Shown: positions 31,472 through 63,512 of the stretch, one piece after another
Layout of the letters: every line of letters begins with the position of its first letter
How positions within the stretch are numbered: the first letter of the stretch is position 1
Virus record (IMG/VR): IMGVR_UViG_3300046694_000148
Coordinates: 1 to 64,000 of that record
Length of the DNA stretch: 64,000 bases
Reading direction: 5' to 3' (one strand)
From: a virus
Notes under the pieces: generated by a model
Seen by the model: the letters and a program-made list of their open reading frames with translations, nothing else
Databases searched by the model: none
What the model was told of the DNA's origin: nothing
Position numbers and translations under genes: made by a program

Positions 31472-31765
31472 TTACAGTTCGTCGTCGAGATTGAATGCTG
31501 CCCTCGGGCCGATCACCACCTCGGGGCAGCGGTCGGTGCGCAGCGTGTCCATCAGGTGAACCCGGCCGCCATGCAGGTGCGCCTCGACATAATTAAACAC
31601 CGCGTCGAGTTGCGGAATACTGCGGGCGATCACGATCACGTCTTCACCAGCGATGCTCATGCCCATCGCGCGCCCGGTATGCACCGGCACGCCGTTCAGG
31701 ACCGACATCGCAGTCTCCAGCGGCAATTCGACGTTGCGCAGCGGCTTCTTCGTGTCGGCCATCAT
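31472..31765 (-). CDS. Unknown early protein with DDEL C-terminus
   Basis: This 97-residue protein is placed at ATG 31765, which overlaps the upstream stop as TGATG and has an AAAGGTG site. The frame extends 10 codons further upstream without a good ribosome site. It has a beta-alpha pattern (E-D-V-I-V-I-A-R-S, Q-L-D-A-V-F-N-Y-V-E-A-H) and ends N-L-D-D-E-L, one of the cleanest examples of the shared acidic C-terminus. Function unknown. Confidence 0.65.
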   Translation of the reverse strand: MMADTKKPLRNVELPLETAMSVLNGVPVHTGRAMGMSIAGEDVIVIARSIPQLDAVFNYVEAHLHGGRVHLMDTLRTDRCPEVVIGPRAAFNLDDEL

Positions 31766-32145
31766 CACACCTTTTGGCATACCGCGATCATCCATGCGAA
31801 TTCGACGATGGCGCGCATGCGTTCTGCGAGCAGTCTGTCAGCGTCGTCGATGGGCGACATCGCAACGTACAGCGCGCCACTCGCCGCGTCCTTCTTCGAC
31901 GAGTTCACGGCGATCTGCACGTCGGTGCCGTTGAAGCGGTAGTTCACGTTCATCATCAGCGTAGCTTCGACCATGAATGCGTCGCACGGATCGGCCAGTG
32001 GTGCGAACACCTCGCGCTCGTCGTAATTATCGCCACCGATCCAGGGGCCGCCCATTCCCAGCGCCTTGTCGTCCCAGCGGTAGCCGGTGAGGTCACGGCC
32101 GATCAGCTTCGCCGCCGCGCGTGTCATTTCTTCGTTGCGGTTCAT
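31765..32145 (-). CDS. Phage ABA-sandwich-like early protein
   Basis: This 126-residue protein follows the general pattern of phage ABA sandwich proteins: an N-terminal helix (NEEMTRAAAKLIGRDLTGY), a P-L-A-D-P-C-D-A-F-M-V-E-A segment and a C-terminal helix with A-x-R-M-R-A-I-V-E-F-A. These small proteins recur in phage early regions without known role. It overlaps the upstream gene by ATGA and the downstream start by one base. Confidence 0.5.
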   Translation of the reverse strand: MNRNEEMTRAAAKLIGRDLTGYRWDDKALGMGGPWIGGDNYDEREVFAPLADPCDAFMVEATLMMNVNYRFNGTDVQIAVNSSKKDAASGALYVAMSPIDDADRLLAERMRAIVEFAWMIAVCQKV

Positions 32146-32540
32146 TTCGCTCCCCTTGTCCTGCGGTCTGCCTTGCGGCGATCCTTACCTACGAATTCGG
32201 TGTTGCTCTTGCGGCGGTCACGCCCCGATCCGCGCTTCTCGATGAACTTGATCTTGCTGCCGTTCTGCTGCGCCAGGAACACCGGCACGTCGAGCACTTC
32301 GCCGCCGACCTTGATGCTCGCTGCACCGTTATCCGTCATCCATTTGCGAATGTCCCGGCCGTCGTTCAGGCTGACGAACAGGATCATGGTCGATCCGTTC
32401 TTACCGCTGATGCGCGCACGCTCGATGTTCGGCTTGTAGTCTGCGGGAAGCCACTCGATTGCGATGATGTCGGAGTACCACAGAAGCGCAGGCACGCCGG
32501 TCATTGCGTCGAAGAAGGTGATGTGGGCGGCGGGGATCAT
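32142..32540 (-). CDS. Unknown early protein, basic C-terminus
   Basis: This 132-residue protein starts at ATG 32540, which overlaps the stop of the upstream gene (CTATGA). A longer frame without support was rejected. The N-terminal half is beta-rich (I-T-F-F-D-A-M, L-L-W-Y-S-D-I-I-A-I-E-W-L); the C-terminal 35 residues are very basic (R-R-K-S, D-R-R-K-A-D-R-R). RNA or DNA binding is plausible. No family recognised. Confidence 0.6.
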   Translation of the reverse strand: MIPAAHITFFDAMTGVPALLWYSDIIAIEWLPADYKPNIERARISGKNGSTMILFVSLNDGRDIRKWMTDNGAASIKVGGEVLDVPVFLAQQNGSKIKFIEKRGSGRDRRKSNTEFVGKDRRKADRRTRGAK

Positions 32541-32890
32541 AGCTCGTCGTCCTCGGCCAGTTTCTTGCGCAGGTCGGCTTCGATGGCGGCCAGGGGTTCG
32601 AGCAGCGAAGGGCGGATCTTGCCACGGCCGCGCACCTCTCTGAAGACTTCCGGCATCACAGGTTCGCCGACGAACGTGAAGATCCACTCATCGCCGTTCA
32701 GGCCGTCCTCGTGCTCGATGGTCAGCTTGCCGCGTTCGACAGCGAGGATGCCGTCAATGCCGAGTACCGGCACGCCCGCCATGAACAGCTTTTCCCTTAC
32801 CGCGACGCCCGCGATAAAGAGGTTGCGGCCGGGATTCTTCGGGCCGATCATTTCGTCGCGCGTGATCGTTACGCGAATTGTCTTGGTCAT
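32537..32890 (-). CDS. Unknown early protein with DDEL C-terminus
   Basis: This 117-residue protein has beta strands (T-I-R-V-T-I, L-F-I-A-G-V-A-V, W-I-F-T-F-V-G-E) followed by a C-terminal helix (P-L-A-A-I-E-A-D-L-R-K-K-L) ending A-E-D-D-E-L. The last Leu codon and stop (CTATGA) supply the ATG of the next gene. A TTAACGGAACG leader provides the ribosome site. It has the same acidic end as many other early proteins here. Function unknown. Confidence 0.65.
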   Translation of the reverse strand: MTKTIRVTITRDEMIGPKNPGRNLFIAGVAVREKLFMAGVPVLGIDGILAVERGKLTIEHEDGLNGDEWIFTFVGEPVMPEVFREVRGRGKIRPSLLEPLAAIEADLRKKLAEDDEL

Positions 32891-32903
32891 TGTTCGTTCC
32901 GTT

Positions 32904-32935
32904 AAATGAGAACCGGCCGCACGCGGCGACCGGCT
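32904..32935 (-). terminator. Hairpin terminator on the minus strand
   Basis: A 10-bp stem (AGCCGGTCGC / GCGGCCGGTT, with G-T pairs) and a CGCGT loop follow the basic protein gene. On the minus strand it is followed by CTCATTTAAC, a weak T-tract, so termination is probably partial. Confidence 0.5.
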
Positions 32936-32943
32936 TTGCTACT

Positions 32944-33321
32944 TTACTTCTTCGGGATCAGCTTGACTTGCGCGAGCGTCCGGCCGCGCGTGTTCAGCAG
33001 GTTGACGATACTGATGCCGAACTTGAAATCGACGCTGTAGCCGGTGGCGTTCGGGTACTTGTCCATCGCGGCGCGCAGGCCCTTCAGGTTCTTGACGACG
33101 TGCTCGGGCATCATCGTCTCGGCGCTCACTTTCGACGGCGCGCTGACGGTCTTCTTCGCTGCGGCATTCTTCTTGACGGTGGCGTCGGCCAGGGCGGTCA
33201 GGGTGTCCTTGCGTTTTGCCGGTGCCTTCTTCGCGGCGGCTTTCAGTTCTGGCTTGTTGCCGCGCTTCGGTGCTGCGGTGGTCTTGGTGGCGGTAGTTTT
33301 GGTTTTTGCTGCGGTAGCCAT
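32944..33321 (-). CDS. Lys/Ala-rich basic protein (histone-H1-like composition)
   Basis: This 125-residue protein has an N-terminal 65 residues almost entirely Lys, Ala, Thr and Pro (A-A-K-T-K-T-T, K-K-A-P-A-K-R-K), like H1 or AlgP-type DNA-binding tails. The C-terminal 60 residues form a small alpha-beta domain (M-M-P-E-H-V-V-K-N-L-K-G-L-R-A-A-M-D). It has its own promoter at 33369-33398 and an AAAAGGAAACG ribosome site, so it is probably made early and in quantity. A DNA-compacting or charge-neutralising role is inferred. Confidence 0.6.
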   Translation of the reverse strand: MATAAKTKTTATKTTAAPKRGNKPELKAAAKKAPAKRKDTLTALADATVKKNAAAKKTVSAPSKVSAETMMPEHVVKNLKGLRAAMDKYPNATGYSVDFKFGISIVNLLNTRGRTLAQVKLIPKK

Positions 33322-33368
33322 TCGGCGTTTCCTTTTACGTTATTGAAGATAGGGTACTGCTGAGGTGA

Positions 33369-33398
33369 ATAATATTCGACACGGAAATTCCCTGTCAA
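33369..33398 (-). promoter_or_regulatory. Early promoter with dyad spacer (minus strand)
   Basis: On the minus strand TTGACA (33398-33393), an 18-base spacer starting GGGAATTTCC and TATTAT (33374-33369). The segment from TGACAGGG to the GTGTCG after CC is an imperfect inverted repeat, the same element seen at five other promoters in this window. It drives the basic-protein gene. Confidence 0.75.
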
Positions 33399-33404
33399 CT
33401 GTTT

Positions 33405-33632
33405 TTACAACTCATCGTCTATTCCGAGACGCTTTTCGAGGTCGGCGATGATCTGTCGTTGGCGCTGCCTGATGCTTCGGTTTGCGGCCAGTTCGGCGCG
33501 CAGTGTGTCGTTCTGATCCTGCTGGTCGAAGAACAGGCCGCGATAGGCTTGCGCATGTTCGACCGCTGCATCGAGCGCGCGCTTCAGGCTGGCGATCTGT
33601 TCTTCCGGCGTGCGTTCGTCACAGGTCGTCAT
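33405..33632 (-). CDS. Short coiled-coil early protein with DDEL C-terminus
   Basis: This 75-residue protein is predicted to be helical throughout, with heptads across about 10-70 (QIASLKRALDAAVEHAQAY, QIIADLEKRL), ending G-I-D-D-E-L. Its start lies inside the last codons of the upstream gene: that gene's GAC GAC CTG TGA reads ATG ACG ACC TGT in this frame. Dimer or adaptor function is possible; unknown. Confidence 0.6.
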   Translation of the reverse strand: MTTCDERTPEEQIASLKRALDAAVEHAQAYRGLFFDQQDQNDTLRAELAANRSIRQRQRQIIADLEKRLGIDDEL

Positions 33633-33912
33633 ACGCGCCTGCCTCGCGCCAGATACGCACGCCCGCCTGCTGGTAGATCTCGTCCATTTCGACGCGGCGG
33701 ATCGTGATCCCCACGCCAGCGGCGAGCGCCGGGCGGCGCATGAACTCCACGTCGGCAGGCTGCACGCCAGCGATGAAGAACGAGTCGCCCGGCCGGTACG
33801 CGATGAACTTCGCCACGAGCACCTTGATCTGTTCCTGCGCGGTCCTGTCCAGCGGCATGCGCGACTTGCCGCGATTGGACGTGACCGGCGTGTCGTCAGA
33901 GGTCGTCGTCAT
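33619..33912 (-). CDS. Unknown early protein with YDDL C-terminus
   Basis: This 97-residue protein starts at ATG 33912, inside the terminal Asp codons of the RdgC-like gene (overlap 17 bases). The longer frame upstream lies wholly within that gene and was rejected. It has strands K-V-L-V-A-K-F-I-A-Y and S-F-F-I-A-G-V, then helix E-M-D-E-I-Y-Q-Q-A. It ends A-Y-D-D-L, a variant of the shared acidic tail. Function unknown. Confidence 0.6.
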   Translation of the reverse strand: MTTTSDDTPVTSNRGKSRMPLDRTAQEQIKVLVAKFIAYRPGDSFFIAGVQPADVEFMRRPALAAGVGITIRRVEMDEIYQQAGVRIWREAGAYDDL

Positions 33913-34873
33913 CGCTCGTCTCGTCAGCGTCGGCCTGGAGCGCGTAGAGCACATTCGCCAGGATGGTGTTGAGCGTGGTGGCGTACAGCCAGTACGTCGC
34001 GTGCAGATCGTCCACGTCGTCGCCGATGCCGCTGACCGTGATGTCGGACAGCTTGATCGCCTTGAATACCAGCTTGTCGGTCAGCGTGAACGCGGCCGTC
34101 TCTTCGTCGATCACGCGCAGGCGCAGCGCCAGTTCGGTCGCGCTGTAGCTGCCGCTGGTCGAGATCTTCTGGATCTCTTCGCTTGCCAGGTCGCGGTCCT
34201 TCACGCGGATCGCGCGCTTGTCCTCGCCCTTGAACACGGCGGCTTCACCGGCTTCCAGCTTGGTCGAGTCTTCGTCGTCGGTGTAGACCAGGCCCTCGCG
34301 TGCGATCTGGCCCAGCAGGTAGCCCGGCGTGCTGCCGGTCGGGATCTCACCGAACTGCCAGTCAACCTTGCGGGCGTCGGCCAGGCGCGCCATCTGGACC
34401 AGCACGCGCTCGACCTGCGTGGCGCTCGACGAGCAGACCAGCACGCGATCCTTGAACACGAGCACCGGCACGATCTTGCGCGTGATGAACGCCTTCGGCA
34501 GCAGCGAGATCTCAACGTCCTCGCGCAACTGTGCGAATTCTTTCTTGTTGAGCGCGCGGCCTTCCTTCTCGGTCAGTTCGCGGTAACGCTTGTTCACTTC
34601 CTCGTCGCGCACCGAGGCGGGCAGCTTGCGCTCGCTGAACTGGAACTTCAGCACGCGGGCCGTTCCGTCGAGATCGTGGACGTAGCTGCCTTTCTCCAGC
34701 GGCTCGATCAGGCCGAGGTTCGTCCATTCGCTTTCGCCGGGATCGCGGGCGATGAAGAGTTCGATGACCGGGGCCGTCTTGTCGGGATTGCGCGCAGCGC
34801 GCCCGCACCAATCGAATAGTGCGGCGGTGCTGGTGAAAGGCGTGAACGCCTTAATGAGTTTCGAGACTTTCAA
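33896..34873 (-). CDS. RdgC-like recombination-associated protein
   Basis: This 325-residue protein is close to the length of RdgC (about 300). Matching signatures are L-P-K-A-F-I-x-R at about 124, an L-V-C-S-S-S-A-T-Q-V-E-R-V-L strand-helix, G-Q-I-A-R-E-G near 186, and a C-terminal R-V-K-D-R-D-L-A-S-E-E-I-Q then A-T-E-L-A-L-R-L, F-x-L-T-D-K-L-V-F-K-A-I. RdgC is a ring-shaped dsDNA-binding protein that modulates RecA. The gene uses TTG, overlapping the upstream stop (CTTTGA). It ends S-D-D-D-D-L, unlike host RdgC. Phage-encoded copies may protect ends or modulate recombination. Confidence 0.8.
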   Translation of the reverse strand: MKVSKLIKAFTPFTSTAALFDWCGRAARNPDKTAPVIELFIARDPGESEWTNLGLIEPLEKGSYVHDLDGTARVLKFQFSERKLPASVRDEEVNKRYRELTEKEGRALNKKEFAQLREDVEISLLPKAFITRKIVPVLVFKDRVLVCSSSATQVERVLVQMARLADARKVDWQFGEIPTGSTPGYLLGQIAREGLVYTDDEDSTKLEAGEAAVFKGEDKRAIRVKDRDLASEEIQKISTSGSYSATELALRLRVIDEETAAFTLTDKLVFKAIKLSDITVSGIGDDVDDLHATYWLYATTLNTILANVLYALQADADETSDDDDL

Positions 34874-35034
34874 AGTTCGTCATCCTCGGTTTGGGTGGTG
34901 GGGGTTTTCTTCGACACGTACTCGGTCACGAAGTCGCCCTTGCTGCGGCGCTTGTCGGCCACTTCAGGATTCAGTGTCAGGTACGGCGGCTTGTCTGCGG
35001 CCATCGGTTCGATGATCCAGGCGATGACTTTCAT
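34870..35034 (-). CDS. Short early protein with DDEL C-terminus
   Basis: This 54-residue protein starts at ATG 35034, overlapping the upstream stop (ATGA) with GAGGAC about 10 bases upstream. It begins M-K-V-I-A-W-I-I-E-P, ends T-E-D-D-E-L, and its stop region supplies the TTG of the RdgC-like gene. The coupling suggests co-expression with the RdgC-like protein. Function unknown. Confidence 0.55.
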   Translation of the reverse strand: MKVIAWIIEPMAADKPPYLTLNPEVADKRRSKGDFVTEYVSKKTPTTQTEDDEL

Positions 35035-35159
35035 TTCACGGTGTCCTCGTTGATCGGCCACATGCGGGCGATATAGTAATCGACTAGCAGGGCCAGGCAG
35101 ATGATTGCGACGATGAACAGAACGGCGCTGATGGTGAGCGGGATCAGTTCGGCGCGCAT
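35031..35159 (-). CDS. 42-residue membrane protein
   Basis: This small gene reads M-R-A-E-L-I-P then a single membrane helix (LTISAVLFIVAIICLALLVD, about residues 8-27) and a short polar tail ending E-D-T-V-K. It starts two bases after the upstream stop and overlaps the next start by ATGA, so it fits a translationally coupled string. It is too short for routine gene callers. Function unknown. Confidence 0.6.
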   Translation of the reverse strand: MRAELIPLTISAVLFIVAIICLALLVDYYIARMWPINEDTVK

Positions 35160-35161
35160 GG

Positions 35162-35659
35162 CTAGATCTCGCCGATGGGGGTCAGGCGGTAGTCAACGAT
35201 GCTCGTGGATTCGTCAACGATGGCTACGCTGAAGTCGATGTGCTGGCGCTCGAATACGGTGGCGACCTGTTCGAGATCCAGGGTCATCGTCGCAAGTCCG
35301 CGCTGTTCCATGATGGCGGCGACGGCGGTGGGAAGCGTCAGCTTCGTGCGGGCCTCGTATTGCTTGTCGAGCAGCGATTCGACGGCGCTGTTCTGTTCGA
35401 GCGCGTCGGCATGGCCGCAGTTGTAGGCTTCACCGATGGCCCCCTTCAGGTACGTCTCGATCAGCGCCTTGTGCTTCGGGTCGAGGTTCGCGCCGAGCGG
35501 GATGGCCGCATAGATCTTCTCGCGTGTGCGCTGGAAGATCTGGCTCGTGTCACGGCGCTCACGCTTCGGTGCCGTGGCCGGTGCTGCCGGTACGCCGCGA
35601 TCCAGCAGTGCGCCGATGTTCGCCAGTCCTTTAACGCTGGCTTTGGTCTGTTTGGTCAT
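35162..35659 (-). CDS. Unknown early protein (165 residues)
   Basis: The protein has a basic N-terminus (1-40), then helical segments (R-T-R-E-K-I-Y-A-A-I, H-K-A-L-I-E-T-Y-L-K-G-A-I-G-E-A-Y) and C-terminal strands (F-S-V-A-I-V-D, Y-R-L-T-P-I-G-E-I). It is the first gene after the promoter-like dyad at 35690-35718, with a TTAACCGGAAAGAGAC leader. No family recognised. Confidence 0.6.
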   Translation of the reverse strand: MTKQTKASVKGLANIGALLDRGVPAAPATAPKRERRDTSQIFQRTREKIYAAIPLGANLDPKHKALIETYLKGAIGEAYNCGHADALEQNSAVESLLDKQYEARTKLTLPTAVAAIMEQRGLATMTLDLEQVATVFERQHIDFSVAIVDESTSIVDYRLTPIGEI

Positions 35660-35689
35660 GTCTCTTTCCGGTTAAGTTGAAGCATTGAA

Positions 35690-52127: not shown

Positions 52128-54695
52128 TCAGAGTTCGTCGTCATCATCGGCGAGTTTTTTCGCCGCGTCGATGTATTTTCGCACTTTCGCATTGTCGATG
52201 GTGATGCTGCCGTCGCCGAACGTGGACTGGAACCGCTCGACATCGCGGGTGTAGTAGGTCCGGTAGTCGCTGCCGACGCGGATCTTACCCAGGCTCTCGA
52301 AACGGTGGCGGGACAGCATCGAACCGACCGCTTTATTCGCCGGAACGTCCAGGCCCCGGTCCATCAGCACTTCGGCCAGGCGGCCACTGTCCAGCAACTC
52401 GAACGAAATCAGCGGATCGGCCTGTTCCGAGATCAGGTCGTGCAGATCTTGGATGAACTGCGGCTGCGCCTGGCGGATCATGTACTTCTTCGCGTCGGTG
52501 TTCGGCGCGTCGCCGTACGGCTTGAACGATTCATCCTGTTCCCACTCCAGCAGCCATTTCCGCAGAGCCGGTGCCGACGACGCGATGGTCCCGTACAGAT
52601 CCTCGTAGTAGTCGGGGTTCTCGTCCTTGAATTCGTCGAGTTTGTCCTTCCGCTGCCACTGGCTGAACAGCACGCAGTATCGGCGGCCGTCGTCGTCCAG
52701 CGGCAGCGCGTCGCGGAAGTTCGAGAACAGCAGGTAGGACGTGGTGTTCACCGCGTTGTACTGCGACTTGCCTTTCGGGTGGACCTCGATCACGTCGTTC
52801 GTGATGTAGGGCTTGATCCGGTTCAGCAGTTCGTACTTGTTGTTCGCGTTGATGAGGCGGACTTCTTCGATACAGGTGAGGCACTGGCCGACAACCCAGT
52901 CGGTGAACGACGATTCGAGAATGTGGGCGTTGAGCATCTGGACGTTCGACACGCCCATGACCGACCGCATCAGGAAAGCGAAGAACGACTTGCCGTCACC
53001 CTCGACGCCTTGCAGCAGGATCGACCAGTTGACGTGACGGCCGGGGTTCTGCACTACCCACGACAGCCAGTCGAGCAGGATGCGGCGTTCTTCCGGCTTC
53101 ACGAGCAGGTGGCGAATATGGTTCTTCACGCGCTTGATGGCCGCTTTATCGCGGGGCAGCATCGCGTCCGGCAGTTCGGGGATCTCGTGCGCCGCATACG
53201 TGTTGGCGAAGATGCCGTCAGCGCGATAGAACACCGGATCGGCACCAGGCTCATACCGGCGACCGTTCACGACCTTGATCTTGTACTTGTTCAGCGCCAG
53301 GGTCGAGGCCGAGTTCGACGGCGAGGTCTTGCCGTCCAAGATGTCCTTCTTCGTCATTGCGTAGCGGTCGAACATCGCATCGAAGCCCTGCTTCGTGGTC
53401 GAGATATTGCGCGAGGTGTCGAAGAAGCGGTCGTCGCTCGTGTCGTAGACCCAGTTCTCGCACCAGCCTGGAATCTTTTCGCCCTTCGACGGCGCGTATG
53501 CGATGGCTTTCTTCACTTCCGACAGCGGCGTCTTCGATCCGCCGTTGATGATGTCGAGGCGTTCCTTCGCCAGCGAGGCCAGCGCCGACCGCGTGAGGCC
53601 GTCGATCTCCGCTTCGCGTGCAGCATCGCGGGCCTTGTTCCAGGCCGCCAGGTCTTTCGCTTCGCTGAACTGGTCGCGCAGTTTCACCGCCAGCGCAGCA
53701 GCGCCTTCGGCCGCAGCCTCTTTCGACAGCTTCAGGATGAAGCGGGCCGTGATCGGTGCGCGCTTCTTGCCGTCGATACCGAAATCATCCCAGCGACGTT
53801 CGAGCGCATCGCGGTCGAAGTTGTCGGCCGTCTCGGACCACTCGGACCACAGTTCAAGGCCATCCTCGCCGCCGTCGTACTGGTGATACAGGGCCATGCC
53901 GACCTGAACCCAGGTGTCGTAGTCGTCAGGGTTCGGCACCATCATCAGGCGCGAGCGCAATTCCGTCTCGCTGATGTCCACGGCCTGCGTGTCTTCGATG
54001 AACGGATCGTCCATGTCGATGTCGGCCAGGTTGCCGCTGCGCTGCTTCTTCACCACCTTCCAGTCGGATTCCTGTTCGGCGCGCTCGTGGAACCAGTCGA
54101 TGAGTTCCTGACATTGCTCGACCGTGATGATCGTGAGTTCGTTCGCCGGGATGGTCAGCGGACCACCGGCCTCGATCACCTCGAAGTCTTTTCCGACCTT
54201 CTCGGACGGCCACATGTACGGCCTGCCGGTGTCGGGGTGAATGTGATACGCGACGAACTGCTGGCCGTCGCAAAGGATCTCGATCTGGTGCAGTTCGCCC
54301 CACTCGTCCTGATAGCGGTTCGAGCGCATTTTGCGGAACGGCGTTTCGGTGCGATAGACGAGCAGGCGCTTCGGCGGCATACCGATTCGCAGCGGTGCGT
54401 CACCGAAGATCTTGCGCGCTTTTTCTTCCGCTTCGAGTGCGACCTTTTCGTCACGAATGTCGAGGTCAACTGCGGGCGTACGCTTGGTCAGAATTCCGAC
54501 GCCAGAATTGCGGTGCCCCGACTCGATCCATTCGGCGAGTTGCGGCTTGTTCGAGCGGGCCTTGCTCCAGTTGTCGAAGCCTGGCGCTTTCTTCCCGACC
54601 GCGATGGGCACGATCTCGTAAGCGTTGTCGATGAGACGTGATCCCAGGTAGGCCAGCGGCCCACTATTTTTGGACGTATATTCTTCGTTCTTCAT
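52128..54695 (-). CDS. Primase-polymerase/SF3 helicase fusion
   Basis: This 855-residue protein starts at ATG 54695, overlapping the HTH gene stop by ATGA. Residues about 10-200 form a bifunctional prim-pol (AEP) domain with catalytic-type D77-L-D79 and a later Y-H-I-H-P-D. Around 245-330 D-T-W-V-Q-V-G-M-A-L-Y-H and W-S-E-W-S are typical of a PriCT-2 region. Residues about 470-720 are a D5/DUF5906-type SF3 helicase: Walker A G-V-E-G-D-G-K-S (about 560-567) and Walker B C-L-T-C-I-E-E-V. It primes and unwinds at the origin. The end reads L-A-D-D-D-D-E-L. Confidence 0.88.
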   Translation of the reverse strand: MKNEEYTSKNSGPLAYLGSRLIDNAYEIVPIAVGKKAPGFDNWSKARSNKPQLAEWIESGHRNSGVGILTKRTPAVDLDIRDEKVALEAEEKARKIFGDAPLRIGMPPKRLLVYRTETPFRKMRSNRYQDEWGELHQIEILCDGQQFVAYHIHPDTGRPYMWPSEKVGKDFEVIEAGGPLTIPANELTIITVEQCQELIDWFHERAEQESDWKVVKKQRSGNLADIDMDDPFIEDTQAVDISETELRSRLMMVPNPDDYDTWVQVGMALYHQYDGGEDGLELWSEWSETADNFDRDALERRWDDFGIDGKKRAPITARFILKLSKEAAAEGAAALAVKLRDQFSEAKDLAAWNKARDAAREAEIDGLTRSALASLAKERLDIINGGSKTPLSEVKKAIAYAPSKGEKIPGWCENWVYDTSDDRFFDTSRNISTTKQGFDAMFDRYAMTKKDILDGKTSPSNSASTLALNKYKIKVVNGRRYEPGADPVFYRADGIFANTYAAHEIPELPDAMLPRDKAAIKRVKNHIRHLLVKPEERRILLDWLSWVVQNPGRHVNWSILLQGVEGDGKSFFAFLMRSVMGVSNVQMLNAHILESSFTDWVVGQCLTCIEEVRLINANNKYELLNRIKPYITNDVIEVHPKGKSQYNAVNTTSYLLFSNFRDALPLDDDGRRYCVLFSQWQRKDKLDEFKDENPDYYEDLYGTIASSAPALRKWLLEWEQDESFKPYGDAPNTDAKKYMIRQAQPQFIQDLHDLISEQADPLISFELLDSGRLAEVLMDRGLDVPANKAVGSMLSRHRFESLGKIRVGSDYRTYYTRDVERFQSTFGDGSITIDNAKVRKYIDAAKKLADDDDEL

Positions 54696-55021
54696 TGGGT
54701 CAGTTCGTGAATTTCGAGCGGGAACATAAGCCACTCGCGTCGTACGACGTTTCGACCGCAAACCTTCTCGATCTTCGACGCCATCGTCGGCGACAGCTTG
54801 CCTTCCCTGATTGATGCGTGTACCTGCGAGCGGTCGATCTTGCAGGCGTCAGCGAGTGCCGCGATGCTGCCGTTTGGCGTGCTGCTGATCGCGGCCTTCA
54901 ATACAAGGTAACGCACGCGCCTGGATTCGAGCGTGCCGTCATCATTGTTAGCCTTCGGTCCTTCGACCCACGGCGGAAAAATTACTTGCAAAATGAATCT
55001 CCTAGTATCCGTCAAAAACAT
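54692..55021 (-). CDS. HTH regulator upstream of the primase gene
   Basis: This 109-residue protein starts at ATG 55021, 7 bases after a -10-like GATAAT, so the mRNA is probably leaderless like lambda cI from its maintenance promoter. An upstream in-frame ATG would require transcription from further away. An HTH lies near 60-80 (I-A-A-L-A-D-A-C-K-I-D-R-S-Q-V-H-A-S-I-R-E-G), followed by K-L-S-P-T-M-A-S-K-I-E-K-V-C-G, in the manner of Cro/CI-type proteins. It may repress itself via an 18-bp palindrome over its -10 and set primase level. Confidence 0.7.
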   Translation of the reverse strand: MFLTDTRRFILQVIFPPWVEGPKANNDDGTLESRRVRYLVLKAAISSTPNGSIAALADACKIDRSQVHASIREGKLSPTMASKIEKVCGRNVVRREWLMFPLEIHELTQ

Positions 55022-55586: not shown

Positions 55587-55970
55587 ATGCTGGAAAAACT
55601 GATTCAAGACCTGATCGCTGCCCTGAACGCCAACACCGCCGCACACATGGGCAACGGTGGCGCTGCTTCGACCGACAAACCGGCCGCATCGACCGACAAG
55701 CCTGCCGGTGGCAAAGCCGCTGGTGGCAAAGCCGCCCCGAAGGCGAAGGAAGAACCGGCAGGCCCGACCGTCGAAGAAATGCAGGCTGCACTCGGCCAGG
55801 TGAAGGAGAAGTTCGGCGCGGCAGAAGCCAAAGCGATCATCAAGTCCTTCGGTAAAGTCGAGAAGATGGGCGAGATCCCGGCCGACAAGGTGAAGGCCGT
55901 GTTCGACGCCGCGACCGCGAAGCTGGCCCCGGCCGACACCACCGCCACCGACGACGACGACGACATCTAA
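55587..55970 (+). CDS. Acidic-tailed protein sharing a domain with the dUTPase extension
   Basis: This 127-residue protein starts at ATG 55587 with a TTAACGGAG leader. It has a helical N-terminus (LEKLIQDLIAALNANTAAH), a Lys/Ala/Gly linker with tandem S-T-D-K-P-A, then a helical domain (T-V-E-E-M-Q-A-A-L-G-Q-V-K-E-K-F-G then A-K-A-I-I-K-S-F-G). This domain matches the dUTPase C-terminal extension in pattern. It ends D-D-D-D-D-I. The acidic tail and position suggest an accessory replication protein. Confidence 0.6.
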   Translation: MLEKLIQDLIAALNANTAAHMGNGGAASTDKPAASTDKPAGGKAAGGKAAPKAKEEPAGPTVEEMQAALGQVKEKFGAAEAKAIIKSFGKVEKMGEIPADKVKAVFDAATAKLAPADTTATDDDDDI

Positions 55971-55976: not shown

Positions 55977-57269
55977 GTGACCGAGCACCGCATCAGCGTC
56001 GCGCAGATGCGTGACGCGATCAGGATGGTCGAGGAAGGCGGTCACTCCGTCTTCTCGCCATCCGGCTCGAAGATGTGGCTCGGTTGCGCGGGATCGCTGA
56101 TCCCAAACCTGTTCGCGCCGGATGATTCTGGCGAGGACGCGGCCTACGGAACCGTCGCCCACATGGTCGGCGAAACGTGGCTAACAGATGGGAAGCGTCC
56201 GAAGCACCTACTCGGCAAAACGTACTGGGTTGACGGCGAGGGCTTCGGGTTCTTCATCACCGTGGATGAGGTGATGATGGACTTCGTGAAACGGTATGTG
56301 GACTGGTGCAAGAACCTGCCAGGCGAGCATTTCGTTGAGACGCGCGTGGACTTCTCGCAGCTTACCCCGATCCCGAACCAGGGCGGCACCGCCGATCACT
56401 GCGCATGCACCTTTCAGCGCATGGTCATCACCGACCTGAAGATGGGCAAAGGGGTGCGGGTCTACGCGAAGGAAAATTCACAGGCATTGCTGTACGCCCT
56501 CGGATTCTTCTTCGCATGGGACTGGCTGTATGACTTCCGCGAGATCGTGATTCGGATCGCGCAGCCGCGCCTCGACGTGTTCGAGGAATGGGTCGTAGAT
56601 CGAGAGTACCTGCTGGCGTTTGCAGAGTACGTGCGTGAACGCGCAGCGGCAGCATGGGTGCAGAACGCACCTCGCACGCCGAGCGCAGAATCGTGCCAGT
56701 GGTGCCGCGTCCAATCGACGTGCGCCGCGAAGGCGAAGGTGGTGCTGGATCTGACCGGGGGCGCGTTCGACGACCTCGAAAAGCCAGTCACCGAGGCAGA
56801 CATGCTGTACTTCAAAGAGGTGCTGCATGACACCGATTCGCCGGACGTGTTGGCAGCGGCAACGCTGACGACGTATGAGTTAGAAAAGCTGTATGACTGG
56901 CGCGGCACGGTCGAGAAGTTCTTCAAGTCGGTGTGCGAAGAACTCGAACGCCGGGCACGCCTCGGTGAGAAGCTGAAGCTGCAAAAACTCGTGGAAGGCC
57001 GCTCGTTCAGGGTGTTCCGCAACAAGGAAAAGGCCGTCGAAGCATTGGTCGGCCTGGGCCTCGAAAGGGGTGATCTCGTGAAAGAGGAAATGGCATCCCC
57101 GGCCGAGGTTGAGAGGTTGCTTACAGCAGCAGGCCACAAGCGCAAGGACATTCCCGATCTGCTGAACGATCTGGTTTTCCGACCGCCTGGCAAAGCAACC
57201 CTGGCGTCCGTTCGTGACAGTAGGCCAGCATTGGCCGACAAGTACGACGACGCTTTTAGCGACGTGTGA
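55977..57269 (+). CDS. DUF2800 nuclease (Cas4/RecB-like)
   Basis: This 430-residue protein matches the phage DUF2800 family, PD-(D/E)XK nucleases. Key elements are C37 in W-L-G-C-A-G-S, G-T-V-A-H, catalytic-type G-G-T-A-D-H (about 136-141), V-I-T-D-L-K-M-G-K-G (about 150-159) and the triple Cys C-Q-W-C-R-V-Q-S-T-C near 240. The four cysteines fit a Cas4/AddB-style iron-sulphur site. It starts at GTG 55977 six bases after the previous stop, without a strong ribosome site. It likely processes DNA ends during recombination. Confidence 0.82.
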   Translation: MTEHRISVAQMRDAIRMVEEGGHSVFSPSGSKMWLGCAGSLIPNLFAPDDSGEDAAYGTVAHMVGETWLTDGKRPKHLLGKTYWVDGEGFGFFITVDEVMMDFVKRYVDWCKNLPGEHFVETRVDFSQLTPIPNQGGTADHCACTFQRMVITDLKMGKGVRVYAKENSQALLYALGFFFAWDWLYDFREIVIRIAQPRLDVFEEWVVDREYLLAFAEYVRERAAAAWVQNAPRTPSAESCQWCRVQSTCAAKAKVVLDLTGGAFDDLEKPVTEADMLYFKEVLHDTDSPDVLAAATLTTYELEKLYDWRGTVEKFFKSVCEELERRARLGEKLKLQKLVEGRSFRVFRNKEKAVEALVGLGLERGDLVKEEMASPAEVERLLTAAGHKRKDIPDLLNDLVFRPPGKATLASVRDSRPALADKYDDAFSDV

Positions 57270-57324: not shown

Positions 57325-57966
57325 ATGAGTGCATTGGTTGTTAAAAAACGCGGCAAGAACTTCGTGCTGTACGAGAACGGCATGATCCGTGTCGATAACG
57401 TCCGCTTCTCCTATCCCCACGTCGATAAGCCGTGGAAGAAAGAGAGCGACAAGGGCGTGGCAAAGTACGGCCTGGTCGGCCTGCTGCCGAAGGAGACGCA
57501 CGAAGAAGCGAAGTCCGTGATTGCACAAGAAATCAAGCGCGTCCTGACTGAAGCCAAACTCACCGTACCGACCGACAAGAAATTCTTGCGCGACGGTGAC
57601 GCGAACGTCGATCCTGATGATCCCGACGCAGGCGAGAACTCTTACCGTGGTCACTGGTTCCTCAGTGCCCGCGAGACGAACCGCCCGACCTTGCGCGACA
57701 AGTCCGGCCGCAAGCTGGACCCGGTGGAAGACCTGCAAACCATCAATGAGCTTTTCTATGGTGGCGCATGGGGCCACATGCTGATTCGTCCGTGGGTTCA
57801 GAACAACGAGCACGGCAAGCGCATCAATGCTGGCCTGGTCGGCGCGATGTTCGCCAAAGACGACAAGGCGTTCGGCCAGGGTCGTGTCGATGACTCCGAT
57901 GCGTGGGATGACCACGCTTCCGGTGACACTGGCGGCAGCAGCAACGATGACGACGACGACCTGTAA
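57325..57966 (+). CDS. DUF2815 single-stranded DNA-binding protein
   Basis: This 213-residue protein starts at ATG 57325 (MSALVVKKRG); an upstream TTG is less likely. It fits the DUF2815 (T7 gp2.5-like OB-fold) family: G-M-I-R-V-D-N-V-R-F-S-Y-P-H-V, K-Y-G-L-V-G-L-L-P-K-E-T, N-S-Y-R-G-H-W-F-L-S-A-R, and W-G-H-M-L-I-R-P. The C-terminus (D-D-S-D-A-W-D-D then S-N-D-D-D-D-D-L) is acidic as in ssDNA-binding proteins that recruit partners. It lies between nuclease and polymerase genes. Confidence 0.82.
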   Translation: MSALVVKKRGKNFVLYENGMIRVDNVRFSYPHVDKPWKKESDKGVAKYGLVGLLPKETHEEAKSVIAQEIKRVLTEAKLTVPTDKKFLRDGDANVDPDDPDAGENSYRGHWFLSARETNRPTLRDKSGRKLDPVEDLQTINELFYGGAWGHMLIRPWVQNNEHGKRINAGLVGAMFAKDDKAFGQGRVDDSDAWDDHASGDTGGSSNDDDDDL

Positions 57967-58035: not shown

Positions 58036-60204
58036 ATGCCAATCTCCACAAAAACATTCCTCGAAAAGCGGCCTGAAGCCGGGAGCGATACCGAGTGCTA
58101 CCGCGATTACTGGAGCATCGGCTTCATCAATCTGGACACCGGCAAGAAGGTCATCATCGAAAAATACGATGGCCTCGAACTCGACCGCCCGAAGATCGCG
58201 CGCATCATGCGCAAGTTCCGCCTGTACACGTTCAACGGCATCGGCTACGACATTCCGATGATCTGCCTGGCGATGGCCGGGGCCAGCAACGAACTGCTGA
58301 AGAAGGCCAGCGACGACATCATCGTCAACCGCCTGCGGCCGTACCAGTTCTTCGAGAAGTACGGCGTCGAGCCGCCCGAATGGCTGGACCACATCGACCT
58401 GTATGACGTAGCGCCAGGCGTCAAGCTGTCCCTGAAGAAGTACGGCGCACGCATGAACATGAAGCGCCTGCAAGAACTCCCCATCGACCCGAGCGAACCT
58501 GTCGGCGTGGCCCGCCGTCCGCTGATGCGCCGCTACCTCGGCAACGATCTTGAGACGACCCGCGAACTGGCCCTGAACCTGCGCGAAGAGATCGACATTC
58601 GCAACGAGATCAGCGCGGAATACGGCATCGACGTGCGCTCGAAGTCCGACGCGCAGATCGCCGAAACGCTAATCAAGGCTGAGGTCGAGCGCGTCACCGG
58701 CCGCAAGGTCGAGAAGCCGGTGGTCACGACGTTCGAGTTCAAGTACGAGCCACCACCGTTCATCAAGTTCAATACCCCGCTGCTGCAAAACGTGCTGAAG
58801 GTCGTGACCTCGGTGCGCTTCAAAGTGAGCGGCGAGAAGGACCTGCCGGGCGCGAAGAAAAAGAACTACGGCGTGGTGCGCCTGCCGCAAGAGATCAGCG
58901 ACATTAAGCTGCGCATCGGCTTCACCGACTACAAGATGGGCATCGGCGGCCTGCACTCGAAAGAGAAGCGCCGCTCGTTCCGCGCCGACGAAGACACGAT
59001 CATCGAAGACCGCGACGTGCGCGCCTACTACCCGCGCCTGATGCTCGCGTGCGGTTACGTCCCGGCCGCGCTGGGCCAGAACTTCCTGGGCGTGTTCTCC
59101 AAGTTCGTCAACCTGCGCGACAGCTACAAGGAGAAGGCCGCCGCGCTGAAGAAGGCTGGCGAAATGGGCCAGTCGATCAAGTACAAGAAGCGTTCCGACT
59201 CCTTCAAGATTGTTAATAACGGCACCTACGGAAAGACCGGCTCACCGTACGCCGTCGTCTACGCGCCGAAGCTGATGATCTCCACCACGATCACCGGGCA
59301 GTTGTCGCTGCTGATGCTGATCGAGGAACTGGAAGCCAACAGGTTCGCGGTGATCTCGGCGAACACTGACGGTATCGTGACCGTGATCCCGCGCGACCGC
59401 TACTGGCTGTTCAACGCCATCGTGTTCGAGTGGGAATGTGCGACCTCGTTCCAGACGGAAGCCGTGCGCTACCTGGGCGTGTTCTCGCGCGACGTGAACA
59501 GCTACATGGCCCTGGTCGAAGACGCGAAGGTGCCGGGCAAGGTCGCTGAGGTGAAGCGCAAGGGCCTGTTCGCAAAGGCTGGCCTGCAAGCGAAGCACGA
59601 TCCGACCTTCGACATTTGCTCGACCGCCGTGGTCGAATACCTGACGAACGGCGCTGACATCGAAGACACGATCATGCGGTGCGACGACATCACGCAGTTC
59701 ATCGGCGTCAAGCAGGTGGGCAACGTGAAAGTCGGCGACAAGATGGTCGGCGGCGGCTACGACTCGCATGGCAACTACCTCGGCAAAATGGTGCGCTGGT
59801 ACTACGCCGAGGGTGAGCGCGGATTCATTGCGAAGGCCAACGGCTCGCGCGTCGCGGGCACTACTGGCGCTTCTCCGGTCATGGATCTGCCTGACGACTT
59901 CCCCGACGACATCGACTACGCCTGGTACGTGCGCGAGGCGTATGCGCGCCTGGACGACATCGGCCTCGACGTGCGCAACCCGCGCCTGAACGGTCGTCAG
60001 GGCTACAAGCTGGGCGTGCTGCCGAAGATGAAGACGGTCCACATCATCGACCTGCAAAGCATGACGGCGCTGTGCGGCCGGGCCGAGAAGAACGTGCGCG
60101 AGCCGTGGGAAGAACTGAAGTTCTTGCCGGACGACATGCGCGTGTGCAAGACCTGCCGGGAAGAACGCGGCCTGCCTGAAGAGGAAGACGATGAGGACGA
60201 GTAA
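58036..60204 (+). CDS. Family B DNA polymerase with proofreading domain
   Basis: This 722-residue protein has 3'-5' exonuclease motifs: Exo I D18-T-E20, Exo II F-N-G-I-G-Y-D-I-P (66-74, D72) and Exo III Y-L-G-N-D-L-E-T-T (about 165-175). Polymerase motifs: A, E-D-R-D-V-R-A-Y-Y-P (about 323-332); B, K-I-V-N-N-G-T-Y-G-K (about 391-400); C, N-T-D-G-I-V (about 443-448), where most relatives have D-T-D-S. The core is shorter than T4 gp43. It ends in an acidic run (E-E-E-D-D-E-D-E) and overlaps the VRR-NUC gene by 14 bases. Confidence 0.85.
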   Translation: MPISTKTFLEKRPEAGSDTECYRDYWSIGFINLDTGKKVIIEKYDGLELDRPKIARIMRKFRLYTFNGIGYDIPMICLAMAGASNELLKKASDDIIVNRLRPYQFFEKYGVEPPEWLDHIDLYDVAPGVKLSLKKYGARMNMKRLQELPIDPSEPVGVARRPLMRRYLGNDLETTRELALNLREEIDIRNEISAEYGIDVRSKSDAQIAETLIKAEVERVTGRKVEKPVVTTFEFKYEPPPFIKFNTPLLQNVLKVVTSVRFKVSGEKDLPGAKKKNYGVVRLPQEISDIKLRIGFTDYKMGIGGLHSKEKRRSFRADEDTIIEDRDVRAYYPRLMLACGYVPAALGQNFLGVFSKFVNLRDSYKEKAAALKKAGEMGQSIKYKKRSDSFKIVNNGTYGKTGSPYAVVYAPKLMISTTITGQLSLLMLIEELEANRFAVISANTDGIVTVIPRDRYWLFNAIVFEWECATSFQTEAVRYLGVFSRDVNSYMALVEDAKVPGKVAEVKRKGLFAKAGLQAKHDPTFDICSTAVVEYLTNGADIEDTIMRCDDITQFIGVKQVGNVKVGDKMVGGGYDSHGNYLGKMVRWYYAEGERGFIAKANGSRVAGTTGASPVMDLPDDFPDDIDYAWYVREAYARLDDIGLDVRNPRLNGRQGYKLGVLPKMKTVHIIDLQSMTALCGRAEKNVREPWEELKFLPDDMRVCKTCREERGLPEEEDDEDE

Positions 60205-60481
60205 GCCGCGCATCGAGAGCGACAACACCAGCGACGCGCACAAATACGCCGAGCGCCGTGGCTGGTGGACGATCAAGGTCGATTCGCCGACCTGCAACGG
60301 CATCCCCGACCGCCTGTACCTGCGCCGTGGCCGGTACGTGTGGGTCGAGTGGAAGCGCCCTGGTCGCGGCGAGAACGGCCTGTCCGCGATTCAGGTAGTG
60401 CGCATCAAGGAAATGCGAGAGCACGGTGCAGAGGTGTACGTGCTCGACGATATTGAAGAGTTCAAGGAGATCATGAAATGA
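60191..60481 (+). CDS. VRR-NUC domain nuclease
   Basis: This 96-residue protein is a stand-alone VRR-NUC (PD-(D/E)XK) domain: G-I-P-D-R-L-Y-L (about 38-45), V-W-V-E-W-K-R-P (about 51-58) and S-A-I-Q (about 66-69) give the D...E-x-K...Q signature. Phage members nick or cut structured DNA. It overlaps the polymerase and helicase genes on either side (14 and 4 bases). Confidence 0.85.
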   Translation: MRTSKPRIESDNTSDAHKYAERRGWWTIKVDSPTCNGIPDRLYLRRGRYVWVEWKRPGRGENGLSAIQVVRIKEMREHGAEVYVLDDIEEFKEIMK

Positions 60482-62262
60482 TGCGCGAGTCGCACGCCCT
60501 GAAGGCGATTGTCGAAGGCATACGCGCGAAGTTCTACGACGTGGAACTGACACGCGAGCAGTTGCACGAGTATCAGCGCATCGGCTACAACTTCCTGAAG
60601 GAGAATCCATTCTCCGCGCTGTTCATCGACATGGGCCTGGGCAAAACGGTCACGTCGCTGACGCTGATCGCCGACCTGCTGGCCGAGTTCGCCGACGACA
60701 ACAAGGTGCTGGTGATCGGGCCGCTGAAGGTGGCGACCCGTACCTGGCCGGACGAGATCAGGAAGTGGAAACACCTGGCGCATTTGAATCATTCGGTCAT
60801 CCACGTCGATGAGGACGACCCGCGCATCAAAGAGGCGTACAAGGCCGCATATCGCTACGAGAAGGCGCACAGCAGCGAGCAGTTCCCATCGAAGCGCGAG
60901 AAGGAAGCCATTCAGCACGCGACCCGCGTGGCCGCACAGAAGCGCGAGGAACTGCGCATCGCCGCAACGCTCAATTCGGCCTCGGTCCACATGATTAGCC
61001 GCGACTGGATCGACTGGCTCGTCACGTACTACCGAGTAGCGAAGAAGCCCTGGCCGTATCGCACCATCATCATCGACGAATCGAGCGGCTTCAAGGACCA
61101 CAACTCGGGGCGCTTCAAGGCGCTCCAGATGCTCGTCGATAACGGCAAGGTGGATCGCCTGCACCTGCTGACGGCGACGCCCGCCACCGAGGGCTACATG
61201 GGCCTCTTCCCGCAGATCTACCTGCTGGACCGTGGCAAGCGTCTCGGCCGCAACGTGACCTCCTACCGCGAACGCTATTTCACCGAGGACCGATACACCC
61301 GCAAATGGAAGCTGCGGCCCGACGCCGAAAAAGAGATCCTGGCGAAGATCACCGACATCTGCCTGGTGATGAAGGAAGAGGATTATCTGCCGAAGGTGCC
61401 GCCGCTGTTCGTGAACCGCAACGTGTTCATGACGCCCGAGCAGCGCACCCTGTACCTGACGATGGAAAAGGACATGGTAGTGACGCTCGACGACGGCACA
61501 GAGGTCCAGGCCGAGACGGCTGCGGCGCTGTCGGCGAAGCTGCTGCAAATGGCATCCGGCGTGCTGTACGACACGAAGCTGGAGCCAGGACAAACCGAGG
61601 AAGACGATCACGTCAAGATCACCAAGATCCACAAGATCCACGAGCACAAGATCGAAGAGTTGAAGCAGATCGTGGAAGAGGCGCAGGGCAAGCCGATCCT
61701 CGTCGGCTATCACCACCGTTCGTCAAGGGATCGACTGCTGAAGGCTTTCCCGCAAGCGGTCAAGATGGACAAGGACGGCAAGAACATCAAGAAGTGGAAC
61801 CAGGGGAAGATACCGATCCTGCTGATGCACCCGCAGTCGGGCGGGCACGGCCTGAACCTGCAAGCCGGTGGTCACATCATCGTATTCTTCGACATACCGT
61901 GGTCGCTCGAACTCTACCTTCAGTTCATCGGTCGCCTGGCGCGCCAGGGCCAGAAGCACCGCGTCACGGTCTTCCTGCTGGTCTGCAAGGACACGCTCGA
62001 CGAAACCGTGGTCAAGGCCCTGACGGCGAAAGAGGACGCGCAGGACCAGCTATTCAAGATCCTGAAACGCATGCGTCATCGCCTGCGGTCGCTGCTAAAG
62101 GGGCGCAAGATCAAGGCCGACGATCCCGAGTGGGACAAGGTGGTCGATGTGCTGACCGGCTTCGCGGATCTCGACGACGACATGGTGTCGAAGGGTGTAA
62201 CGATTGGCGATGGCCTGCGCGACGAAGAACTCGTGGCCGCCATCGACGACGACGAACTTTGA
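60478..62262 (+). CDS. SNF2-like superfamily 2 helicase
   Basis: This 594-residue protein has Q-region F-L-K-E-N-P, Walker A M-G-L-G-K-T (about 51-56), motif II I-I-D-E-S-S (D-E-S-S, about 198-203), motif III T-A-T-P-A-T (about 230-236), motif V S-G-G-H-G-L-N-L-Q and motif VI Q-F-I-G-R-L-A-R-Q-G-Q (about 481-491). It fits SNF2-type helicases of phage replication modules. It starts by ATGA overlap with the VRR-NUC gene and ends A-A-I-D-D-D-E-L. Likely role is fork or recombination remodelling. Confidence 0.88.
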   Translation: MMRESHALKAIVEGIRAKFYDVELTREQLHEYQRIGYNFLKENPFSALFIDMGLGKTVTSLTLIADLLAEFADDNKVLVIGPLKVATRTWPDEIRKWKHLAHLNHSVIHVDEDDPRIKEAYKAAYRYEKAHSSEQFPSKREKEAIQHATRVAAQKREELRIAATLNSASVHMISRDWIDWLVTYYRVAKKPWPYRTIIIDESSGFKDHNSGRFKALQMLVDNGKVDRLHLLTATPATEGYMGLFPQIYLLDRGKRLGRNVTSYRERYFTEDRYTRKWKLRPDAEKEILAKITDICLVMKEEDYLPKVPPLFVNRNVFMTPEQRTLYLTMEKDMVVTLDDGTEVQAETAAALSAKLLQMASGVLYDTKLEPGQTEEDDHVKITKIHKIHEHKIEELKQIVEEAQGKPILVGYHHRSSRDRLLKAFPQAVKMDKDGKNIKKWNQGKIPILLMHPQSGGHGLNLQAGGHIIVFFDIPWSLELYLQFIGRLARQGQKHRVTVFLLVCKDTLDETVVKALTAKEDAQDQLFKILKRMRHRLRSLLKGRKIKADDPEWDKVVDVLTGFADLDDDMVSKGVTIGDGLRDEELVAAIDDDEL

Positions 62263-62272
62263 AAGGAGCAGT

Positions 62273-62635
62273 ATGGCGGTGTACGTGGACGATATGCGAG
62301 CGAAGTACGGCAGGATGGTCATGTGCCACATGCTCGCCGATAGCGATGAAGAACTACACGCGATGGCCGACAAGATCGGCGTCGCGCGGCGCTGGTGGCA
62401 ATCGCCGCAGAAGACCAGCGGCAGTCACTACGACATCGCGTTGAGCAAGCGCGCTGTTGCGGTAGCTGCCGGTGCCGTCGAAATCACCTGGCGACAGGCT
62501 GGCTCGATGAACACGCGGCGACGTGTGACCGGAAGCCTCGGCGATCCCGCCGACGCCGAAGCCTGGCTTTCCGACTACCTGGCAAAGCGCCGCGCCGAGA
62601 AGGCCGCGCGAGAAGCAGAGGACGACGAACTTTGA
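62273..62635 (+). CDS. DUF4031 protein
   Basis: This 120-residue protein starts at ATG 62273 with an AAAGGAGC site. It matches DUF4031: M-A-V-Y-V-D-D-M-R-A-K-Y-G-R-M-V-M-C-H-M, then S-D-E-E-L-H-A-M-A-D-K-I-G, W-W-Q, S-H-Y-D-I-A-L-S-K-R and A-V-A-A-G-A-V-E-I. The biochemical role of the family is unknown. A Lys/Arg/Glu helix carries the end E-A-E-D-D-E-L. Confidence 0.85.
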   Translation: MAVYVDDMRAKYGRMVMCHMLADSDEELHAMADKIGVARRWWQSPQKTSGSHYDIALSKRAVAVAAGAVEITWRQAGSMNTRRRVTGSLGDPADAEAWLSDYLAKRRAEKAAREAEDDEL

Positions 62636-62670
62636 ATTCGTTCTGACGTTTCCTGCAAGCATGTAAGATG

Positions 62671-62695
62671 CCGACCTATTCAATGGATAGGTCGG
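62671..62695 (+). promoter_or_regulatory. Perfect 9-bp inverted repeat in front of the small HTH gene
   Basis: CCGACCTAT and ATAGGTCGG flank TCAATGG, ending 3 bases before the ATG at 62699. It could be an operator or an RNA hairpin masking the ribosome site. No T-tract follows, so it is not a terminator. A weak promoter (TAAGAT as -10 at about 62664-62669) lies just upstream. Confidence 0.65.
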
Positions 62696-62698
62696 TAA

Positions 62699-62935
62699 AT
62701 GGATAAACAGTATAAATTGTTAGCGGACTTCGAGGCCCTGGTCGGCCTCAAGCCTGCGCAGGCGTGCCAGTTGCTCGGCATCGCCTATTCCACCTACGCG
62801 GCGTATCGCAACTGCGGTCGCCCGCTCCAGCCGTATCACCACAATCACATCGCCGACATTTCGCTCATTGCGAAGCTGTCCTCGCGCGCACTCAAAAAAC
62901 TTATCGACGAGCGAATCAATGGTCAAACGAACTGA
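62699..62935 (+). CDS. Small HTH protein before the terminase genes
   Basis: This 78-residue protein has an HTH at about 17-38 (L-K-P-A-Q-A-C-Q-L-L-G-I-A-Y-S-T-Y-A-A-Y-R-N-C), followed by Y-H-H-N-H-I and a C-terminal helix (SSRALKKLIDERI). It probably regulates the late operon or itself through the adjoining inverted repeat. No clear Shine-Dalgarno is seen. It overlaps the small terminase start by 17 bases. Confidence 0.65.
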   Translation: MDKQYKLLADFEALVGLKPAQACQLLGIAYSTYAAYRNCGRPLQPYHHNHIADISLIAKLSSRALKKLIDERINGQTN

Positions 62936-63512
62936 ACTAACCGATGACACTACGCGCGCCATCCTGTACGACGGCGCGAACCTGTCGCAGCTTGGTCAAC
63001 TGTTCAGGATGGACCACCGCAGCATCGTTGCGAAGATCCACACCTGCAAGCCGATTGGCACGCGCAACGGTGCGGACATCTACGCGGTACACGAGGTTGC
63101 ACCATTCCTCGTGAAGCCCGCGTACGACATCGAGACGTACATCAAGAAGATGCACCACAACGACCTGCCGAAGATGCTCACCAAAGAGTTTTGGGCAGGC
63201 CAGCGGTCGCGCCAGGAATTCGAGCAGCGCGAGGGCAACCTGTGGCCGACAGATCGCGTCGTCAGCGTCATCGGCGAGATCATGAAGCTGGTGAAGATGA
63301 GCATTCGCTTGAACGCCGACGCGGTGGACCGCCAGGCCGAACTGAGCGACCGCCAGCGCGGCATCGTGAAGGCCCTCGGCGACGGCCTGCTGGAGACGCT
63401 GTATGCAACGGTGATCGAGAAGTTCGCCGAGAAGCCGACGAACCTGGCCGTGCAGGAACGCGCCGAGCAGGTGGTCACTGAATTGAAGGACGAGGAAGAC
63501 GATGAACTTTAA
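62919..63512 (+). CDS. Terminase small subunit (DUF1441-like)
   Basis: This 197-residue protein starts at ATG 62919 (MVKRTELTDD), inside the end of the HTH gene. The N-terminal HTH (I-L-Y-D-G-A-N-L-S-Q-L-G-Q-L-F-R-M-D-H-R-S-I) and the following I-Y-A-V-H-E-V-A-P-F-L resemble Nu1/DUF1441 small terminases. A helical middle (E-F-W-A-G-Q-R-S-R-Q-E-F) suits oligomerisation. It directly precedes the large subunit. It ends K-D-E-E-D-D-E-L; the GATGAACTT codons for D-E-L contain the large terminase ATG. Confidence 0.78.
   Translation: MVKRTELTDDTTRAILYDGANLSQLGQLFRMDHRSIVAKIHTCKPIGTRNGADIYAVHEVAPFLVKPAYDIETYIKKMHHNDLPKMLTKEFWAGQRSRQEFEQREGNLWPTDRVVSVIGEIMKLVKMSIRLNADAVDRQAELSDRQRGIVKALGDGLLETLYATVIEKFAEKPTNLAVQERAEQVVTELKDEEDDEL

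Follow-up and report, generated by a model that had tools for sequence, protein, structure and literature searches.

Acidic C-terminal tails encoded in the window

The stretch of DNA analyzed here (the window; 64,000 nucleotides, positions 1 to 64,000 of the 67,647-base IMG/VR virus record IMGVR_UViG_3300046694_000148) encodes a series of unrelated proteins that end in the same kind of tail, a short run of Asp and Glu residues capped by one hydrophobic residue. In gene content and order, the window is Casjensviridae-like (Chi/Enc34-like), matching Chi, Enc34, phiAxp-2, and UF_RH7: the shared order comprises primase-helicase, a 131-residue open reading frame (131-aa ORF), DUF2800 exonuclease, Enc34-type single-stranded DNA (ssDNA)-binding protein (SSB), polymerase, VRR-NUC, SNF2 helicase, terminase small subunit (TerS), TerL, portal, protease, major capsid protein, and tail genes. 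In both the window and the Casjensviridae, the head and tail genes are followed by an early region that runs leftward and includes an RdgC-like gene. The window also falls inside the Casjensviridae-like group in a tree, with orthologue families common to up to 22 other genomes of our panel. This panel comprises 27 genomes, whose genes were called with a codon-usage caller; the calls matched the GenBank annotation of Enc34, phiAxp-2, and UF_RH7 well, as judged by eye. Orthologue families were clustered after the last 8 residues had been removed from proteins of more than 60 residues, so that the tails could not drive the clustering.

Within the shared order, the Prim-Pol/primase-helicase (52128..54761, minus strand; Pfam Prim-Pol, PriCT_2, and DUF5906) ends in ADDDDEL, and 17 of its 24 orthologues have an acidic tail. 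The window member of the 131-aa ORF family (phrog_7721; 55587..55970, plus strand, 127 residues from the called start at 55587) ends in TDDDDDI, with an acidic tail in 14/21 orthologues; a low-confidence model of this family (predicted template modeling score, 0.45) has helices and a disordered tail and gave no PDB match at E<=0.001. The DUF2800 exonuclease (55977..57269, plus strand) is a weak member of the set, with the degenerate end YDDAFSDV in the window and clear tails in 15/27 orthologues. The Enc34-type SSB (57325..57966, plus strand; Pfam PF10991) ends in NDDDDDL, and an acidic tail is present in 23/27 orthologues; in its model, the OB core is confident and the tail disordered, and its solved relatives include 5odj and 5odk. 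Next to it, a divergent family B-type DNA polymerase (58036..60204, plus strand), in place of which other members of the group have a family A polymerase, has the acidic end EEEDDEDE without a hydrophobic cap. The SNF2 helicase (60478..62262, plus strand; Pfam SNF2 and Helicase_C) ends in IDDDEL and is tailed in 13/27 orthologues, a DUF4031 protein (62273..62635, plus strand; Pfam PF13223) ends in AEDDEL, and TerS (62919..63512, plus strand; phrog_141) ends in EEDDEL, with an acidic tail in 18/21 orthologues. Outside this block, a 97-residue head-operon protein (3038..3331, plus strand; DUF7443, Pfam PF24227) ends in AAAAADDL, and its orthologues bear an acidic tail in 15/22 cases (e.g., NAADDEV in Enc34).

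The remaining tagged proteins are encoded on the minus strand in the early region, where the RdgC-like protein (33896..34873; Pfam PF04381, E=3.7e-27) ends in TSDDDDL and all of its orthologues (20/20) are tailed. Around it lie four small ORFans, for which the closest relative of the window, G001, provides a comparison: one of 107 residues ending in NLDDEL (31472..31795; no Pfam or PHROG match), kept as FNLDDEL in G001; one of 117 residues ending in AEDDEL (32537..32890), ADEDDEL in G001; one of 75 residues ending in GIDDEL (33405..33632), with the weaker tail GVDQDL in G001; and one ending in TEDDEL (34870..35061), TEEDDEL in G001. The phrog_7200 protein (33619..33954) ends in AYDDL, and in this family (n=20) the tail is found only in members whose genomes favor Leu as the last tail residue. 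Such runs of small tagged ORFans adjoining the RdgC-like gene are seen both in the window (31472-35061) and in phiAxp-2 (L003:47302-51153), where most of the small genes near the RdgC-like gene end in a DDEL-type tail and one is weakly DnaQ-like. All twelve capped C-termini that an earlier reading of this DNA (the original prediction) had listed, together with the polymerase end EEEDDEDE and the head-region end ADDL, are indeed present at the genes to which it had assigned them.

Excess and conservation of the tails

To define the tail, we used the motif [DE]3[LIVMF] at the C-terminus, with an expectation drawn from its internal frequency in the same proteomes. By this definition, 11 of the 84 called proteins of the window are tailed against 0.04 expected (binomial p = 2e-24), and over the 27 genomes there are 154 among 1916 proteins against 1.46 expected, an approximately 100-fold excess that bears out the contention that the tail is more common than composition allows. 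The position is equally sharp, with 154 occurrences at the very C-terminus and 1 when the motif is shifted one residue inward. In BMP-1, BT638P7, G003, and G004, which have distantly related SSBs and served as controls, the exact motif form is absent. At the nucleotide level, the copies vary: Leu is encoded by CTG, CTA, TTG, CTC, and CTT, Asp by GAC or GAT, and Glu by GAA or GAG, both TAA and TGA serve as stops, the linkers differ, and most tail ends are free of overlap by the next gene. A DNA repeat, or the stop/start overlap constraint raised in the original prediction, is excluded by these diverse codons and by the lack of overlap at most tails. Because codons, linkers, and stop codons all differ between copies, selection on the tails acts at the amino-acid level.

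The relatives keep the tail on the same orthologues, namely, the primase-helicase, SSB, RdgC-like protein, TerS, exonuclease, SNF2 helicase, 131-aa ORF, and DUF7443, as was anticipated for a genuine phage-wide tag; the claim of a DNA-directed role for most tagged proteins is likewise borne out. In the panel, the tail is found in none of the major capsid, TerL, major tail, tape-measure, VRR-NUC, or family A polymerase orthologues, the last of which (0/20 tailed) end in FYRKD. Thus, the proposed absence of the tail from structural proteins stands for the major capsid, major tail, and tape-measure proteins, but it does not extend to DUF7443 of the head operon.

Several comparisons reveal the tails as extensions appended to otherwise normal domains. 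The DUF7609 proteins align to a common domain end, after which only phages with Val as last tail residue add a short linker and a DDDEV-type tip, whereas those of the other phages stop at VTRTA-like ends. Similarly, a DnaQ-like protein has an extension ending in DEDDEL in FoX4 only, and in the SNF2 helicases of the window and G001 the bodies are 83% identical and the linkers 12%, with the DDEL tip kept. The tail was found in 0 of 80 DUF4031 homologues from other viral contigs; a scan for RdgC homologues in bacterial genomes gave none, so that absence of the tail outside the family rests on DUF4031. A weaker, related end (WDEI, WDEV, FDEL, or FDDL) is seen in a PAPS-reductase-like family (fam35; Chi, Enc34, RAH2, SAP012, and others), with some variation of the kind described below for the last residue.

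The last residue changes in concert within phage lineages

The last residue of the tail tracks the genome and not the protein family, so that each genome may be said to have its own dialect. It is Val on nearly all tagged proteins of Chi, Enc34, RAH2, Smarc5, SAP012, and XAP3, Ile on all eight core families of BUCT551, and mostly Leu in the window, phiAxp-2, AXY1, FoX4, UF_RH7, MA11, and SS2019XI. Within a genome, unrelated families agree at 0.82, compared with 0.38 +/- 0.03 when residues are permuted within families with one genome per clade (0/5000 permutations); a weaker effect of this kind is seen at the penultimate residue, and untagged proteins of the same genomes show no such terminal bias. 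The result was replicated in an IMG/VR survey of 80 loci, whose 28 representatives below 60% SSB identity gave 0.76 against 0.40 +/- 0.04 permuted. In the tree, the Val phages form one clade and Ile is found outside it as well (BUCT551 and R16L); hence, many unrelated genes must have switched their last codon together, a concerted change of the motif on unrelated proteins within a phage lineage. The dialect follows the phage and not the host, as illustrated by the Serratia marcescens phages Smarc1, with Leu, and Smarc5, with Val.

Deeper IMG/VR relatives have other shared C-terminal spellings, namely, GGL (L209, L210, and L214), SGL (L201), DGF (L212), and FDD (L216), each on at least two proteins per contig. 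In phages that are more distant but have a related SSB, the SSB, primase, and exonuclease share yet a different ending (DFLD, DFLE, or EDF).

Possible readers of the tail and comparison with known systems

We propose that these phages quite probably carry, on about 8-14 proteins each, an acidic docking tail resembling those of T7 gp2.5 and gp4, together with a shared phage-encoded reader. As a short linear docking motif, the tail would consist of a disordered linker, at least three Asp or Glu residues, and one hydrophobic residue with its free carboxylate, kept by selection on roughly 8-14 unrelated proteins in each genome. The concerted change of the last residue argues for one specific reader or a small set of them, and a phage-encoded one is favored because phages of one host species can differ in dialect. 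We infer that a single reader is shared, that it is encoded by the phage and not by the host, and that it acts in replication, recombination, and packaging. One phage-encoded hub might thus read the tails of the primase-helicase, exonuclease, RdgC-like protein, SNF2 helicase, TerS, and small early proteins, which would be brought together at one site, with a single pocket to compete for.

Two basic candidates for such a hub are ubiquitous, the SSB core (isoelectric point [pI] about 8.7) and VRR-NUC (pI about 9.4). Our leading candidate, offered tentatively, is the phage's own Enc34-type SSB through its basic OB-fold core, whose groove receives the acidic tail of a neighbor in the Enc34 crystal; were it the reader, tagged enzymes could dock on the SSB at ssDNA and displace it. 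Some observations weigh against a single shared reader. Terminal residues are mixed in JC01 (Phe or Ile) and in Kokobel1 and NotEvenPhaged (Ile, Met, and Leu); therefore, the reader can be permissive, or two readers may exist. AH2 has few tails and Bhz60 almost none, though both keep the same replication genes. As the Val dialect is a single clade, there are few clean switches on the tree, and neither a distance-corrected dialect association over eight proteins nor a Val-versus-Leu search for residues tracking the dialect discriminated between the candidate readers.

Other partners and functions for the tails can be envisaged. In a T7-style arrangement, they would attach to basic patches on the phage DNA polymerase, much as the tails of T7 gp4 and gp2.5 bind gp5-thioredoxin, and the gp4 tails are a direct precedent; consistent with this, the tail-less family A polymerases are basic (pI about 8.3). 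However, tails coexist both with family A enzymes (Enc34 and UF_RH7) and with the divergent family B type (window and phiAxp-2), and the polymerase is therefore unlikely to be the sole reader. Further, two viral contigs, L157 and L158, match at about 98% identity on both sides of the polymerase gene yet have unrelated polymerases there (L157:10675-12702 versus L158:10712-12760), and the family B-type enzyme of this pair itself ends in GEDL, a dialect-matching tail.

Alternatively, the tails could mimic the C-terminus of bacterial SSB (SSB-Ct) and recruit or block host SSB-binding proteins, since the latter has the same design, an acidic run with a terminal hydrophobic residue (DDDIPF), and some of these phages have other proteins ending in exactly DDDIPF. 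A host reader is nonetheless quite improbable, as the main tag never ends in PF and is present in SAP012 and R16L beside separate DDDIPF proteins, and as phages of the same host differ in dialect where a host reader should impose a single one. The DDDIPF ends occur on unrelated small proteins without a Pfam match (SAP012, L084:14712-15086, minus strand, with an orthologue in XAP3; R16L, L081:244-657, minus strand). The main tag of these genomes ends in Val or Ile, and DDDIPF, the tip of the host SSB, is a second tag with host spelling.

Recognition by ClpXP and Tsp is influenced by the C-terminal sequence, and many of the bearers are small early proteins; hence, the acidic ends might simply protect from host proteases or tune turnover, with no shared docking partner. 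This is very unlikely, because such a device explains neither the absence of the tail from capsid and tail proteins nor why all bearers in a genome have the same last residue, which differs in the next lineage. Of the two functions put forward in the original prediction, the protease shield is accordingly disfavored, while the concerted switching of the terminal residue across unrelated proteins lends good support to a docking tag that is phage-wide and has a common reader.

A further role, electrostatic autoinhibition in which each tail acts as a DNA mimic masking the nucleic-acid-binding surface of its own protein, would suit the DNA-directed activities of most bearers and recalls the gain of double-stranded DNA binding described for the tail-less Enc34 SSB (PMC5686142). 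We regard it as highly improbable, for it predicts neither a shared, co-switching terminal hydrophobic residue on unrelated folds nor tails on a head-operon protein. Finally, although acidic residues are frequent in phage proteins, the likelihood that chance, composition, a DNA-level repeat, or a stop-codon overlap artifact makes the tails is negligible in view of their excess, sharp position, and diverse codons and linkers.

Returning to the shared phage-encoded reader, a broader version of this proposal is plausible, though we stop short of favoring it: the tails might form a proteome-wide address code, by which a single phage-made receptor gathers all tagged proteins into one replication-recombination-packaging assembly, the primase as well as the packaging and head-operon proteins. 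The code would be rewritten in concert when the receptor pocket changes, the tag would assign a function to dozens of ORFans, and the second, host-spelled tag (DDDIPF) would separately reach the host machinery. Should the tag have a shared phage-encoded reader, one short peptide would define membership in the DNA-handling machine of numerous sequenced phages, with hosts such as Salmonella, Klebsiella, Proteus, Pseudomonas, and Achromobacter, and the last five residues would predict the roles of unnamed early genes. The concerted motif change on about eight unrelated proteins would then be a rare natural record of a receptor coevolving with all of its ligands.

No description of shared tails in Casjensviridae-like phages was found in the full-text literature searched, a scope outside which most subscription papers lie, and a shared tail with one common reader appears not to have been described before. 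Enc34 ORF6 (DUF2815 SSB; PDB 5odj, 5odk, and 5odl), to which the window SSB is directly related (E=1.9e-42), has this acidic tail too, and how the tail affects DNA binding has been measured; the portions of that report we draw on describe a structurally T7-type SSB, in whose crystal the eleven C-terminal residues are invisible and the traceable end sits in a neighbor's groove, and they treat the tail as an SSB feature without reporting it on other Enc34 proteins (PMC5686142). Bacterial SSB-Ct likewise uses an acidic run with a terminal hydrophobic residue as a protein-docking motif. There, one carrier is met by many readers, whereas in the Casjensviridae many carriers are presumably met by one or a few; moreover, no tagged window protein ends in PF, and separate DDDIPF proteins are found in SAP012, XAP3, and R16L. 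The closest parallel is T7, in which the gp4 tails dock on basic patches of the gp5 polymerase (PMC12593628, PMC8472574). As in T7, a disordered acidic tail with a hydrophobic cap is present on both the SSB and the primase-helicase of one phage (DDDDDL and DDDDEL in the window). Among 43 T7 proteins checked, however, only gp2.5 (EDGDF) and gp4 (NDTDF) combine an acidic end with a Phe cap, whereas here about 8-14 proteins are tagged, including RdgC-like, SNF2, TerS, and head-operon proteins. The cap is Leu, Val, Ile, Met, or Phe depending on the lineage, with Phe confined to some JC01 proteins, and the polymerase alone is an unlikely reader in the Casjensviridae. By analogy, we suggest that the device might work like the T7 tails, extended to many more proteins and rewritten lineage by lineage; a long-studied mechanism, limited to two proteins in T7, would thereby be broadened to a network.

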